Origin: Nitrososphaerota archaeon
GTDB taxonomy: Archaea > Thermoproteota > Nitrososphaeria > Conexivisphaerales > Conexivisphaeraceae
Assembly: GCA_015522695.1 (NCBI GenBank)
Contig: WALT01000015.1
Location: 1 to 56,369 of the forward strand
DNA length: 56,369 nucleotides
Reading direction: 5' to 3'
The notes under the pieces were generated by a model, which had not been told where the DNA came from, ran no database searches, and saw only the letters and a program-made list of their open reading frames with translations. This document shows, one piece after another, positions 10,939-17,588 of this stretch. The number at the start of each line of letters is the position of its first letter. The stretch's first letter is position 1. The translations under genes were made by a program, and so were the position numbers.

Positions 10939-12039
10939 GTGGAGATAACGCTTTCAATCCCCTTCGGCTACGAGCCCATCGACGAAGTCAGAAAGTTGTT
11001 AGAGGATTTCAGGGATATGGTGAATTTCTGCGTAGATAGGGCCTTAAAGCATAACGTTACAAGCTTCGCCAAGCTCAGGAGGCTTGTTTATGAGGAGTAG
11101 AAGTCCAAGTGGGATTATTCGACGCATTACTGTCATTCAGTCTGCAGGGTAGCGACTTCGATGCTGAAGAGCTGGAGGAGGCTTAAACGGAAGGGTTTAG
11201 CTAAAAACGATGAACCCATCGCTAAAAAGCTATTTATTCAGTTCGACGCTTTGCTGGTGAGGTATGAGGGTGATAAGCTCAGGATATCGGTCAGGCCGAG
11301 GAAGTTCCTGACCATAAACCTGAAGTATGGAAGCTACCAGAAGCGGTTTATCGAGGAGTGGAGGGCTGGAAGGCTTAGAGTAGGGGAGGTATCGCTGAAC
11401 GAAACCAAAATCCTGATACCGTTCAGAAAGGACGTGGATTTAACGAATCCTAAGGATTGGATCGCTATAGATGTGAATGAATCCAACGTCACCGGCGTCA
11501 GCTCAAACCCGCATATCTTAAGGATAGAGACGAACCTCAGGGAGATTAGAAGCGTATACTTTGAGAAGAGACGGAAGATACAGAAGCTGTCGAAGTATAA
11601 GCCTTTGACCGCTGAGAGGCTCCTTAGAAAATACTCAGATAGGGAGAAGCGTAGGATAAAGGATCTGTGCCACAAAGTGGCCAAAAGGATGGTGGAAGTG
11701 GCTAAGCTGAATGGCTTCGGCATCGTGATGGAAGACCTGAAGGGGATGGGGAGGCGGATGAACTACGGCAAGAGGATGAACAGGAGGCTTCACGGCTTAC
11801 CATACAGGAAACTACAGTCCTATATCGAATACAAAGCGAGGCTTAACGGTCTGCCAGTCGAATATGTTGATGCTAAATACACTTCAAGTCTCTGTCCGAT
11901 ATGTGGAGAGAAGCTGAGTAAAGCTCCGAATGGGCGGAGACTCTTGAAGTGTAAGAGCTGTGGATATGAAGAGGATAGGGATATAATTGCATGCCTAAAT
12001 TTGTTGAAGAGGAACCCAAGATGTGGGGGAGCTCATTAA
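10939..12039 (+). pseudogene. tnpB: TnpB of an IS200/IS605-type element, interrupted by an in-frame TAG
   Basis: The frame reads as TnpB from about 10939 (VEITLSIPFGYEPIDEVRKL) to 12039, but a TAG stop occurs at 11098-11100. After it the frame stays open, and ATG 11161 could restart a 292-residue protein. The downstream part keeps the RuvC-like nuclease motifs: Asp in IAIDVNES, Glu in GIVMEDLKGM and Asp in EEDRDIIACLN. It also keeps the zinc ribbon CPICG...CKSCG. TnpB is an RNA-guided DNA nuclease related to Cas12. No TnpA transposase is present, so the element cannot move by itself. TAG is a normal stop in neighbouring genes (secY, uS19), so recoding is unlikely. The DNA is AT-richer than its surroundings. 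Confidence 0.85.
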
Positions 12040-12118: not shown

Positions 12119-12601
12119 ATGATACCAATTGAGTACATAGCTGGATTGTTTGATGGTGAAGGATGTTTTGACGTGGAGATAAATAGGGACAATAGGATGA
12201 GACTTGGATTAAGGATAAGACCTTACATCTCATTAGGTCTTGGAGTTCAAGACGCTCAGATACTTGATGAGATTACAGAGGGCTTTCCGTCAGTTAGCTT
12301 TGACAAAAGATACGTCAAAGCTAAAGATGGCGGTGTGAAGGGAGTAGTCATTAAGCTTCATAGTAAAAAGGGTGCTCAAGAATTTATTCGTGCGATAAAG
12401 CCCTACATACGGTTACCCACGAATAAGAGGAGGCTTGAACTCTTGGGGAAACTCCTCGATTTGGCTAAGCCGTACAAGAGACTTGATGATAATGAAGTAA
12501 AGGAATTGTGGGCAATTGTCAACGAAATAAGAGCATTATCAAAAAAGAAGGGTAGGAATGCTAAATACCGTATTTCCGTTGCCTCCGAAAGCCATCTATG
12601 A
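12119..12601 (+). CDS. LAGLIDADG homing endonuclease
   Basis: The 160-residue protein has one LAGLIDADG helix near the N-terminus (IEYIAGLFDGEGCFDV), with the catalytic acid in the GEG position. It is followed by a single alpha/beta repeat ending LPTNKRRLELLGKLLDLAK. Single-motif proteins of this size act as homodimers and cut long near-palindromic sites. Such enzymes usually lie in rRNA or tRNA introns or inteins; this one is free-standing. It starts 79 nt after TnpB, shares the AT-rich composition and ends 76 bp from the uS19 3' end. A TATA-like GAAAATAAATT lies 17-28 nt upstream of the ATG. Confidence 0.88.
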   Translation: MIPIEYIAGLFDGEGCFDVEINRDNRMRLGLRIRPYISLGLGVQDAQILDEITEGFPSVSFDKRYVKAKDGGVKGVVIKLHSKKGAQEFIRAIKPYIRLPTNKRRLELLGKLLDLAKPYKRLDDNEVKELWAIVNEIRALSKKKGRNAKYRISVASESHL

Positions 12602-13276: not shown

Positions 13277-14005
13277 CTACTTCCCCCTGACCCCGCCCCT
13301 ACCCGTCTTCTTGGCGGCTATATTGCCCACCTTGGCGCCCGGCGGGGCCCCCCTGGCGACCGTCGTCGGCTTGCCGGGGTGTTGATGTCTACCGCCTCCC
13401 CATGGGTGATGGACCGCAGCCATCGCGACGCCGCGGACGGTCGGGTATTTCCTCCCCTTCGCCCTCAGGTAGTACCGTCTCCTGCCGGCCTTCAGGAAGT
13501 GCTTCTCCATCCTCCCACCGCCGGCGACGACCCCCACGGTGGCCCTGGCGTTGTGGCCGAGCTCTATCGTCCTGCCTGAGGGAAGCTTCAATATCGTGGA
13601 CGTCTTAGTCTGGGCGAAGACTATCGCCGAAGTTCCAGGTGAACGGGCGATCTCCCCTCCATCGCCGAAGTTCCTCTCGATGTTCGAGATCACAGTCCCT
13701 TCCGGTATCCTGCCGAGCGGGAGTACGTTCCCGTTCTCCGGCGGGGAATCGGGGCCCAACGATACCTTGGCCCCCCTCTCCAGGCCCATCACCGCGGGGA
13801 GGTACGCCGTGGTCCCGTCATCCAACCTTATCCTGGCGAGTGGGGTCTGTCTTCCCCGCTCGTGGACGAGGTCCTCGACGATTCCGAAATGTGTCTCATC
13901 ACGTGGAAGCTGAGGATACTTGACTGGTGCCAGCTTCCCGACGACCTTGGCCCTGAACTGGGAGCCGCCGCGACCGCGCCTCTGCACCAATATCCGTCTA
14001 CCCAA
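13277..14005 (-). CDS. rpl2: Large subunit ribosomal protein uL2 (L2P)
   Basis: The 242-residue protein starts MGRRILVQRRGRGGSQFRA and ends KVGNIAAKKTGRGGVRGK. The signature HPWGGGRHQHPGKPTTVARGAPPG includes the His needed for peptidyl transferase function in the uL2 family. Length is normal for archaea. It is the last gene of the uL3-uL4-uL23-uL2 string before a 215-bp gap. Confidence 0.97.
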   Translation of the reverse strand: MGRRILVQRRGRGGSQFRAKVVGKLAPVKYPQLPRDETHFGIVEDLVHERGRQTPLARIRLDDGTTAYLPAVMGLERGAKVSLGPDSPPENGNVLPLGRIPEGTVISNIERNFGDGGEIARSPGTSAIVFAQTKTSTILKLPSGRTIELGHNARATVGVVAGGGRMEKHFLKAGRRRYYLRAKGRKYPTVRGVAMAAVHHPWGGGRHQHPGKPTTVARGAPPGAKVGNIAAKKTGRGGVRGK

Positions 14006-14017
14006 GGTCGATCACCT

Positions 14018-14284
14018 CTACACAAGCCCCAACCTCGACGCTATGTCGGTGGCGCTATATCCAGGCGCCAGCTTCACGTAGGCCCTCTTTCCCTTCGCTG
14101 TCCTCAACGTGTTGATCCCCAAGACCTCGACGTCGAAGAGCATCTCCACCGCCGTCTTTATCTCCCTTTTCGTGGCCTTATCGTCCACGAGCAACATGAG
14201 CTTGTTCTCCCTCTCCATCATCAGGAAGCTCTTCTCCGTCACGAGAGGCGCCTTGACTATCTTGAACGCCCTCTCATAATCCAT
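14018..14284 (-). CDS. rpl23: Large subunit ribosomal protein uL23 (L23P)
   Basis: The 88-residue product starts MDYERAFKIVKAPLVTEKSFLMMERENKL, the usual archaeal uL23 N-terminus. The 28 codons open upstream are inside uL4 and unlike the family. The end VKLAPGYSATDIASRLGLV is also typical. uL23 lies at the tunnel exit and binds SRP. It overlaps the uL4 stop by 11 nt. Confidence 0.95.
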   Translation of the reverse strand: MDYERAFKIVKAPLVTEKSFLMMERENKLMLLVDDKATKREIKTAVEMLFDVEVLGINTLRTAKGKRAYVKLAPGYSATDIASRLGLV

Positions 14285-15074
14285 GTGCCGATGCCACCTC
14301 GTCGATCGTCCCGGGTATCCCCTTGAGGGCTGAGGCCGTCCAGATGGAAAGGCGGCCCGGGTGTCCACCTGGAGCCAGATGTAGGACTGATATGTCCTTC
14401 GCGAGGACGACGTCGACGCCCGGGATGTTCCTGGCCGCCTTGGACACCCCCCTATCCTCGCCGACGACCATCAGGGGGCCTGAACCGGTCCTCCTGGTCC
14501 TTCCCCTCCACCTGGACTTGCCGCCCCTGGGACTCCTGTCCGCCGCCCTCTCGACGTCCTCCCACAGGCCCAACTTCATGAGCACCCCCCTCAACTCGCT
14601 CGACCTCGATATCGACTCGAGATCGTCGACGACCACGAGCGGTATCTCCGGGACCCTGTCTATCCTGTGCCCACGTGATCTCACGAGTTCAGCGATCGCG
14701 GTGGCGGCTATCGCCGAAGCCGTGGCGAGCCTCCTCTCCTTCCTGTTGACCTCCTTCCTGATGACCTTCTCGACCCTCGGGGAGTGGGCCCTCCTGCCGC
14801 CCACGACGCTGGCGACCCCGGCGGCCTGGCCGGCCCTGGAATACCTATTGCCCTTGACCCTGGCTATCCTTGAGACGCCACGGCCGACGCCCCACGACTC
14901 GGCTGACGTGCGCTTGCCGGCCATGACATCGGTGCCCTTGGGCTGAAGCCTGTGGGTGAAGAGGGCCCAGAATACCCTCCTTATCAGGGCCGGCATCACG
15001 ACCGTCCTGAAGGCCGTGGGCAGCTCGACCTCCCCGGCTTTCTCACCCTTCAGATCGTAGATGGAAGTCATCAT
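14274..15074 (-). CDS. rpl4: Large subunit ribosomal protein uL4 (L4P/L1e)
   Basis: The 266-residue protein starts MMTSIYDLKGEKAGEVELP and contains the extended loop with ESWGVGRGVSRIARVKGNRYSRAGQAAGVASVVGGRRAHSP, which reaches into the exit tunnel. The C-terminus GRLSIWTASALKGI is typical. The gene follows uL3 with one nucleotide between. A second Met follows the first, so the start could be 3 nt later. Confidence 0.96.
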   Translation of the reverse strand: MMTSIYDLKGEKAGEVELPTAFRTVVMPALIRRVFWALFTHRLQPKGTDVMAGKRTSAESWGVGRGVSRIARVKGNRYSRAGQAAGVASVVGGRRAHSPRVEKVIRKEVNRKERRLATASAIAATAIAELVRSRGHRIDRVPEIPLVVVDDLESISRSSELRGVLMKLGLWEDVERAADRSPRGGKSRWRGRTRRTGSGPLMVVGEDRGVSKAARNIPGVDVVLAKDISVLHLAPGGHPGRLSIWTASALKGIPGTIDEVASAHGL

Positions 15075-15075
15075 C

Positions 15076-16107
15076 CTAATACATCCCCGCTGTCAGCTTC
15101 GACGTGTCGGCAGGGCTCGAGTCCAGATATGATATCCGCGGCTCCTTCTGTGGGACCATCTTACGTCTCGCAGGGTACCTGAGCAGGACGGGCCTCTTGG
15201 CAGGTCCGGGGACGGAGCCGCTCACCAGGACGTATTGACCCCTCACGACCCCGAAATGTGGGAAGCCGCCCTTCGGGGTCACAGGCCTCTCGTCCTCCCT
15301 GGCCATCAAGAGTATCCTCTTGTTATATTCGACGCGCTGGTGGAAGCCCATCTGTCCAGCCATGGGGACTGTGTACATGACGTTTGCCGGGTGCCATGGA
15401 CCGAGCGTACCGACAGCCCTGACGGTCTTCCTCGACTTGTGCTGCTTCCTCTTCACCCCGAACCTCTTGACGGGTCCTTGGATCCCCTTGCCCTTCGTTA
15501 TCGCGGCGACGTCCACGAACATCCCGGGCTTGAAAACGTCCTCTACTCCGACGCTGCCGCCCACGAGCCCGACCGCATATTCGAACCTCGCCCTGACGTC
15601 GGCGCCGCCGACCCCAACCTCCATGATGAATGGCCTCTTCTGCGGTAGGCCCACGTCCTTTGGTATGCTGTAGACGAGCGACGATATCCCGACAGCGTCG
15701 TCGAGGAGGGATTCGATGTCCCTCGCCTGGTCCTCAACCCCCGGCGGGCTCCTCGGCCTCCTCCCGAATATCCTCTCGTCCGAGTAGTTGTATAGATCCC
15801 CGATCACCACGCGGTAGCCATCACGCCATCCATAGACCCTGACCCCGAACACGTACGACGGCGGGGAGGAGAGCACCGTGGCCGGCTGGAGCAGCGGCTT
15901 GCCGTAGTTCGGTATGTTCTCCCTATCGTCCACCATTATCGCGTGGGTCATCCCAGCCTTGTACGTTATCGTGCCCAACAGGGCTGGTTTCCCCATCTTG
16001 GATGGGGTGGGCCAAACCCTGAACTGTGGCAGAAGGGTACCGGCCCTGGACCTCGGCCTATAGGCTAGCGAACCCCTCCTCGGTGCACTCTTCTTTCTGT
16101 GGCCGAT
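15076..16107 (-). CDS. rpl3: Large subunit ribosomal protein uL3 (L3P), apparent ATC start
   Basis: uL3 is a core assembly-initiating 50S protein whose loop reaches the peptidyl transferase centre. The conserved archaeal N-terminus reads GHRKKSAPRRGSLAYRPR and begins at 16104. The codon immediately before it is ATC (16105-16107), where ATG is expected. An in-frame TGA lies three codons further up, so no ATG, GTG or TTG can serve. The first ATG in frame is at 15996 and would delete 37 codons of highly conserved sequence. A strong GGAGGGTGAGG Shine-Dalgarno stands just before the ATC. With this start the protein has 343 residues, the normal archaeal length. The core motif GFHQRVEYNKRIL is intact. 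Either the gene initiates at AUC or a G-to-C change or sequence error is present. Confidence 0.85.
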   Translation of the reverse strand: MGHRKKSAPRRGSLAYRPRSRAGTLLPQFRVWPTPSKMGKPALLGTITYKAGMTHAIMVDDRENIPNYGKPLLQPATVLSSPPSYVFGVRVYGWRDGYRVVIGDLYNYSDERIFGRRPRSPPGVEDQARDIESLLDDAVGISSLVYSIPKDVGLPQKRPFIMEVGVGGADVRARFEYAVGLVGGSVGVEDVFKPGMFVDVAAITKGKGIQGPVKRFGVKRKQHKSRKTVRAVGTLGPWHPANVMYTVPMAGQMGFHQRVEYNKRILLMAREDERPVTPKGGFPHFGVVRGQYVLVSGSVPGPAKRPVLLRYPARRKMVPQKEPRISYLDSSPADTSKLTAGMY

Positions 16108-16150
16108 AGACCCTCACCCTCCGGCGAGGAGCCTCTCACCAAGTGCCTAG

Positions 16151-16163
16151 ATTAAAACTTTAT
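16151..16163 (-). promoter_or_regulatory. Probable promoter (TATA region) of the uL3 operon
   Basis: The minus strand reads ATAAAGTTTTAAT here, an AT-rich block in GC-rich surroundings, 44-56 nt before the uL3 start region. It would give a leader of about 20 nt containing the Shine-Dalgarno. Confidence 0.45.
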
Positions 16164-16355
16164 CGTCCCTCCTATCCATCACAAGTGAAGCCGGTACCGA
16201 TTATGTGAGCCGCCGATGTTGAGGGTTATCGTGGACACAGTATTCGTCCACCCCCCATCCGAAGGTCGCTGCCCCATCACGTCCCTGTGCGTCCATTTGT
16301 CGCCGGTGGTACATCAATGGTAGTTCGCCCTTCAGATACGTTCCACACAGTAGTC

Positions 16356-16371
16356 TGTCAGTTGACTGACA
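16356..16371. promoter_or_regulatory. Palindromic operator-like site, distal copy
   Basis: TGTCAGTTGACTGACA has 7-bp arms around TG. It is a near copy of the site at 16388-16405; centres are 33 bp apart, about three helical turns, with the TATA box between them. This arrangement suggests binding by a dimeric repressor on one face of the DNA. Confidence 0.6.
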
Positions 16372-16373
16372 AA

Positions 16374-16386
16374 TGTTTATATATAA
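16374..16386 (+). promoter_or_regulatory. TATA box for the ATPase gene
   Basis: TGTTTATATATAA lies 21-33 nt upstream of the ATG at 16407, which fits a leaderless transcript. It is flanked on both sides by the two palindromes. Confidence 0.65.
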
Positions 16387-16387
16387 T

Positions 16388-16405
16388 TTGTCAGTTAATT
16401 GACAA
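16388..16405. promoter_or_regulatory. Palindromic operator-like site, proximal copy
   Basis: TTGTCAGTTAATTGACAA is a near-perfect palindrome ending 1 nt before the ATG at 16407. A protein bound here would cover the transcription start. Its consensus with the distal site is TGTCAGTTRAYTGACA. Confidence 0.6.
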
Positions 16406-16406
16406 G

Positions 16407-17588
16407 ATGGAGGAATTAGCCTATCGCAACAACCCTTGGTGGGAATGGAGGAGTTGGAAAGACAGGGACCTGGATTTAAAGGTGTTTAAGGAGATGAGGG
16501 TTAAATGGAAGCCTGGCTGGCTTAGAGCTATATCGTTGAAGCCGTTCTCACTCAATTTCATATTCGGCCCGAGGCAGGTGGGCAAGACGACGGGCATAAA
16601 GCTCTTGATTGAAAGGTTGATGAAAGAGACAAAACCTAAGGCTGTATTTTACTTCAATTGCGATCTGATTTCAGATGCGAGGGAGCTCAAATCCGTTCTG
16701 GACTTCTACAGGGAATTTAGAGCTGGTGAGGGTATAAAGGGCTCATTTATATTCTTGGACGAGGTAACAGGCGTAGAGAATTGGTGGAAAATCGTAAAGG
16801 GATATATAGATATTGGCCTTTTTCAGGACGATGTGCTCACGGTCCTAGGCTCGGCATCCTTTAAATTGAAAAGGTTTTATGAGGCTTTCCCTGGCAGAAG
16901 GGGTTTAGGCAGAAAGATCGAAGTAATGCCGCTCGATTTCAAGGAATACGTAAAAGTTCATGGTATAAAGCCGAAGATGAGCGAATACGACAAGTTGTTG
17001 GCCTTTTTCGATAAGTACCTTCAAACAGGAGGATTTCCAAGGAGCATAAACGAGGATGAGCGATCCTTTGAAGACCTGATCATGAGCGTGGAAAGGGACG
17101 TCTCAAAGGCAGGCCGGAGCGTGAAGATCTTCAGGATGGTGTTGAGGTCGATTATAGAAAAGGCTCCGAGCGCCCTAAGTTATAATTCCATAGCCAGCGA
17201 AATAGGAATATCTCATAACACCGTCGCGGAGTACATGGGGTTGATGGAGGATATGTTCATCCTGGGTATGGCTTACTTAAAGGAAGGAGGTAAGGTCCTT
17301 TTCAGGAAGGAAAAGAAGTTCTTCCTAAGGGATCCTTTTATAACGAAAACGTTCGCGAACGTTTTCGGGCTTAGCGTGAGGAAGGGCTTTCTCTACGAAT
17401 GGGTCGTGCAAGAACATCTATTACGTAAATTCGGTGAGGTTCATTATTGGAGGAATGGATATGAGGTGGATTGTATAGCGGACGGGTTAAAGGTCGAAGT
17501 GAAGGCCGGAAAGCCCCATCGAAGATATCCCAAGGACGTCTTGGTTTTAAGCGAGCATGATATACCGAGATTTCTTCTGGATCTATAA
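16407..17588 (+). CDS. AAA-type ATPase with C-terminal DUF4143/PD-(D/E)XK-like domain
   Basis: The 393-residue protein is of the archaeal ATPase family often annotated ATP-binding protein DUF4143. It has a P-loop FGPRQVGKTT near residue 55, Walker B FIFLDEV, and a sensor-like LTVLGSASF. A helix-turn-helix follows (SYNSIASEIGISHNTVAEYMGLMEDM). The C-terminal domain resembles a nuclease fold (EVDCIADGLKVEVKAG, with D-x-n-E-x-K spacing). An ORF is open 40 codons further upstream, but the promoter geometry and family N-terminus favour ATG 16407. The gene is AT-rich and stands alone between the uL3 promoter and a tRNA gene, so it was probably acquired. The cellular role of the family is not established. 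Confidence 0.8.
   Translation: MEELAYRNNPWWEWRSWKDRDLDLKVFKEMRVKWKPGWLRAISLKPFSLNFIFGPRQVGKTTGIKLLIERLMKETKPKAVFYFNCDLISDARELKSVLDFYREFRAGEGIKGSFIFLDEVTGVENWWKIVKGYIDIGLFQDDVLTVLGSASFKLKRFYEAFPGRRGLGRKIEVMPLDFKEYVKVHGIKPKMSEYDKLLAFFDKYLQTGGFPRSINEDERSFEDLIMSVERDVSKAGRSVKIFRMVLRSIIEKAPSALSYNSIASEIGISHNTVAEYMGLMEDMFILGMAYLKEGGKVLFRKEKKFFLRDPFITKTFANVFGLSVRKGFLYEWVVQEHLLRKFGEVHYWRNGYEVDCIADGLKVEVKAGKPHRRYPKDVLVLSEHDIPRFLLDL
17344..17367. repeat. 24-bp perfect palindrome inside the ATPase gene
   Basis: The arms are CGAAAACGTTCG and CGAACGTTTTCG, fully self-complementary with no spacer. It lies in codons for TKTFANVF. Such a long perfect palindrome is unlikely by chance in coding DNA. Confidence 0.75.

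Follow-up and report, generated by a model that had tools for sequence, protein, structure and literature searches.

Organisation of the uL3 locus

The window, i.e., the whole stretch of 56,369 nucleotides analysed here, belongs to a genome of 1.31 Mb in 34 contigs (G000) from the order Conexivisphaerales, for which the families Conexivisphaeraceae, UBA164, and DTJL01 have been described (PMC10833072). On the minus strand, uL3 is the first gene of a closely packed uL3–uL4–uL23–uL2 operon (Table 1). The uL3 product scores above the curated cut-offs for archaeal uL3 over its full length, with 364 bits against a cut-off of 309 for NCBIfam TIGR03626 (L3_arch) and 375 bits against 341 for NF003261, and both matches extend from the third residue on. 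The uL3 chains of solved archaeal ribosomes align with the product starting at its fourth to eighth residue.

At the 5' end of the gene, the minus strand reads GGAGGGTGAGGGTCT ATC GGC CAC AGA AAG AAG, or GGAGGGTGAGGGTCT-ATC-GGCCACAGAAAGAAGAGTGCACCG in a longer reading. The conserved archaeal uL3 N-terminus, GHRKKSAPRRGS, is entirely encoded, with ATC at the position of the initiator methionine. The initial annotation, which proposed initiation at this codon, was correct in placing the conserved N-terminus ahead of the first ATG and an in-frame TGA three codons above the ATC. Between this TGA and codon 38, the frame holds no ATG, GTG, or TTG codon. Because of the TGA, a start further upstream is impossible, and the ATG at codon 38 is an implausible start since conserved N-terminal residues precede it.

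The Shine-Dalgarno (SD) sequence GGAGGGTGA is indeed as strong and as well placed for the ATC as had been claimed. Its duplex with the 16S rRNA tail amounts to −11.6 kcal/mol, a value equalled by just 8–10% of 316 canonical starts. A TATA-like element further upstream would put the transcript start near position 16128, which suggests a leader of about 20 nt.

Several additional features were noted around the operon. An ATPase-like gene is divergent from uL3 in the window; in the related genome G001 its place is taken by an intron-bearing tRNA-Ile(GAT) that ends 57 bp before the uL3 start codon, ATA. At the end of the run of ribosomal-protein genes in the window, uS19 is adjoined by open reading frames that resemble a homing endonuclease and a TnpB transposase.

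Table 1. Positions of the features discussed, in window coordinates unless a genome and contig are given
Feature	Position	Strand	Remark
uL3 (rpl3) CDS	15076–16107	−	343 residues counted from ATC; stop TAG at 15078–15076
ATC start codon	16105–16107	−	Initiator-Met position; 13 further genomes of the order have ATC/ATA
Shine-Dalgarno GGAGGGTGA	16114–16122	−	3' end 6 nt ahead of ATC
In-frame TGA	16114–16116	−	Within the SD; three codons 5' of ATC; bars starts further upstream
TATA-like TTTTAAT	16151–16157	−	Read from sequence
First in-frame ATG	15994–15996	−	Codon 38 of the frame
uL4	14274–15074	−	ATG start one base past the uL3 stop
uL23	14018–14284	−	ATG start; 11-nt overlap with the end of uL4
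uL2	13277–14005	−	TTG start, SD GAGGTGATC
LAGLIDADG-type homing endonuclease-like ORF	12119–12601	+	By eye
TnpB-like transposase ORF	11161–12039	+	By eye
ATPase-like gene	16287–17588	+	Divergent from uL3
tRNA-Ile(GAT)	G001:C1:280433–280536		Intron-bearing
LeuS ATT codon	G000:C10:25173–25175; G001:C1:485358–485360	+	No canonical start in G000 and G001
AbiEii-like nucleotidyltransferase frames	G001:C1:1370603–1371280; G000:C5:46347–47024	+	By eye

The uL3 start codon in related genomes

Of 61 genomes searched from the class, 58 contain a uL3 homologue. Within the order, uL3 was readable in 17 genomes, and in 14 of these, from three families, the codon at the start position is ATH. The comparison with close relatives that the initial annotation had called for thus shows this codon to be ATC or ATA in 13 genomes besides that of the window. 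In the window's own family (f1), the start is ATC in G000 and G002 and ATA in G003 and in G001, the last a complete genome of 1.59 Mb in a single contig. The single f3 genome (G005) has ATC, and all nine f4 genomes have ATA, their leader reading GGTGAAGGCTT-ATA or, in G019, GGTGAAGGTCT-ATA. All three f2 genomes have ATG. The ATH starts agree in their first two bases and vary between A and C in the third, which is never G or T; genus g2 includes both ATC and ATA, so a third-base change took place there that did not yield G. An SD of the GGTGA or GGGGGGAGG type lies ahead of every ATH start, with duplex energies of −8.3 to −12.0 kcal/mol, which places them among the strongest 6–29% of 316 shared canonical starts, as compared with −3.5 to −10.7 kcal/mol in the ATG-bearing f2 genomes. 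A T occupies position −1 in 13 of the 14. As judged from these sequences, the ATC start of uL3 is genuine and conserved, with no canonical alternative in the frame.

Outside the order, the uL3 start is canonical in every genome read, with ATG or TTG in the other families of the class. Within the class, a pattern that combines ATH with the uL3 N-terminus matched 6 genomes out of 400, each belonging to this order; the pattern misses f4 genomes with a PHRGS motif, and the f4 starts were read one by one. Across 349 genomes of the phylum, the pattern gave no uL3 match beyond G000, in a search that covers about half of the genomes as gauged by a control pattern with canonical starts, which matched 32 of 61. 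Since the uL3 tree leaves the position of the f2 branch unsettled (support 44/75), a single origin of the ATH start with one return to ATG and separate origins are both possible.

Screen for unusual starts in other genes

To assess the rest of the gene set, the complete genome G001 and 942 kb of G000 were compared by their stop-to-stop frames, yielding 718 ortholog pairs, with rRNA and antisense shadow frames set aside; the screen is blind to ATH starts with an NTG codon upstream. In both genomes, clear coding homology that extends well 5' of the earliest canonical codon was limited to uL3 and leucyl-tRNA synthetase (LeuS). Columns of shared ATH codons preceded by an SD numbered 34, as against 34 for AAN and 70 for CTN control codons, and were mostly internal codons. 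There is no general excess of ATH, and this test lends no support to widespread ATH starts. The canonical starts in G001 comprise 144 ATG, 96 GTG, and 76 TTG.

In f1, LeuS has ATT GCT followed by a serine codon (Met-Ala-Ser) in all three genomes read, although in G002 a downstream TTG is a possible alternative start. In f3 and f4 an ATG is available. Since a TATA-like box lies about 27–29 nt upstream of the ATT, the f1 LeuS mRNA may be leaderless with an AUU start. A separate case was noted in an AbiEii-like nucleotidyltransferase, where the ATG of G000 corresponds in the alignment to an ACG of G001 and a conserved promoter-like stretch lies ahead.

Translation machinery and leader

The 16S rRNA 3' end of G001 is canonical (GGATCACCTCCT). 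An unusual initiator tRNA was considered as a cause and rejected, because the initiator tRNA is canonical in both G000 and G001, with an ordinary CTCATAA loop. The uL3 leader folds no better than shuffled sequences (z-scores of +0.5, +0.5, and −0.7), and no Rfam family matched within it. A 4-bp stem that would hold the AUH codon in its loop is not kept, with G-G and G-A mismatches in G001 and G005 as judged by eye. The idea that the gene of initiation factor aIF1 shares the ATH start was likewise discarded, as each aIF1 gene read from the order offers GTG, TTG, or ATG as a possible start; those of f1 carry GTG at the likely start. The aIF1 proteins of two f4 genomes lack an N-terminal cysteine-rich stretch, C-x-x-CGLPxxLCxC, that is present in f1, f3, and G019.

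Proposed mode of initiation

Initiation of uL3 at the ATC or ATA codon is near certain on the sequence comparisons described above. We propose that the ordinary initiator Met-tRNA (anticodon CAU) reads AUC in the window and AUA or AUC in the relatives, and that the third-base mismatch would be offset by the strong SD, which lies about 6 nt ahead of the codon. A U at position −1 perhaps also helps, as it could form an extended codon-anticodon pair with A37 of the tRNA. Initiation at AUH should be weak, and should be sensitive to the fidelity factor aIF1, which is reported to disfavour non-canonical starts (PMC6237735; PMC8211752). Because uL4, uL23, and uL2 are closely packed behind uL3, inefficient initiation at uL3 could have consequences for the operon, and the AUH codon may be an inherited brake that couples operon output to initiation conditions. 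Taken as a whole, initiation at AUH by the initiator Met-tRNA with rescue by the SD, possibly acting as a brake on the operon, is likely the best explanation of the data.

Alternative explanations

A one-base error in sequencing or assembly, which the initial annotation regarded as the main alternative, has nothing but the rarity of ATC starts in its favour, and is refuted by 13 further genomes in which this codon reads ATC or ATA, one of them complete in a single contig. Given this retention across three families, the ATC is not a sequencing error, and the chance of one is negligible. Synthesis of a shortened uL3 from the downstream methionine at 15996 would rely on the earliest canonical codon of the frame, but residues 2–37 are conserved with relatives and with the uL3 of solved archaeal ribosomes, and in the part encoded before any NTG codon G001 and G000 agree at 14 of 18 aligned residues, which makes such a product highly improbable. 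A slightly less remote, but still very improbable, explanation is an upstream start combined with recoding, by read-through of the TGA, a frameshift, or splicing. It draws on an in-frame micro-ORF, ATG GGT AGG TGA in G005 and ATG GGA AGG TGA in four f4 genomes. However, the micro-ORF is missing in the window and in G010, G017, and G019, its ATG is replaced by TTG in G012 and G015, and G001–G003 have neither a stop at the TGA site nor a start; moreover, the SD motif GGTGA accounts for the TGA. Where present, the micro-ORF (ATG-GGW-AGG-TGA) ends two codons 5' of the ATH codon, at loci L006, L040, L043, L045, and L046, with the TTG version at L042 and L044.

A different question is whether the ATH start, once accepted, serves any purpose. 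An ancestor might have lost the AUG, the strong SD might have sufficed, and the AUG might never have been restored, leaving a tolerated weak start with no regulation. Such a history is a serious possibility, at somewhat less than even chance. GTG and TTG are in high use, LeuS provides a second gene with ATT in the three f1 genomes read, and the leader shows neither a fold above shuffles nor an Rfam match. On the other hand, a single mutation would turn ATA or ATC into ATG, but this is seen in none of the 14 genomes from the three families, even though exchange between A and C did happen, both within genus g2 and between families, and only two such genes were found among the 718 pairs. Retention of the AUH codon for a regulatory purpose is plausible, and neutral tolerance is about equally likely. 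The proposed brake also has to be set against the ATG or TTG starts of the three f2 genomes and of the remainder of the class, which implies that it is not essential to the operon; against the absence of a canonical start from LeuS in f1 as well, consistent with a general tolerance of weak starts; and against the canonical starts, which are already relaxed in the lineage, with GTG and TTG common in G001. The reading put forward in the initial annotation holds up in part. Initiation at ATC is strongly supported, and autoregulation of the infC type is possible, but uL3 is no start-codon fidelity factor, the aIF1 genes read lack an ATH start, and no structure was found in the leader.

Comparison with known systems

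Archaeal start codons are described as AUG, GUG, and UUG (PMC7531240), and no archaeal AUH start was found in the literature searched. The use of AUA or AUC as the start of a universal ribosomal-protein gene in three families would demonstrate that initiation in living archaea tolerates third-base mismatches, and does so in an essential gene. Gene callers limited to ATG, GTG, and TTG would truncate uL3 in these families. Elsewhere in the class and phylum, uL3 is the same protein, in many cases with a GxRK N-terminus, but starts with ATG, GTG, or TTG instead. The uL3 ATH codon offers a natural test case for whether start-codon fidelity is used for regulation in archaea. More tentatively, the order may use the start codon as a control element, where AUA or AUC at the first gene of the main ribosomal-protein operon would let discrimination by aIF1 set the output of ribosomal proteins, as an archaeal counterpart of infC and sigR; control of this type would then act on ribosome synthesis in archaea.

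The precedent in bacteria is infC, the IF3 gene, which has an ATT or ATC start and, like uL3, combines an AUH start with a role in the translation machinery. Unlike uL3, which is no fidelity factor, infC specifies the very factor by which its start codon is discriminated, and a comparable feedback on uL3 would be hypothetical; the factors also differ, bacterial IF3 as opposed to archaeal aIF1. Streptomyces sigR has a GTC start (GTT in two species) and a conserved extended ribosome-binding site, and is repressed by IF3, an example of how such a codon can serve as a brake (PMC5472188). Similarities with uL3 are that the non-canonical start is conserved, with a third base that is swapped (GTC/GTT) yet never canonical, that the SD is extended (AGGAGGTG in sigR), and that the gene was mis-annotated and heads a tightly packed operon. 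The sigR start differs in being GTC rather than ATC or ATA, and in belonging to a sigma factor of a bacterium in which repression by IF3 has been shown experimentally.
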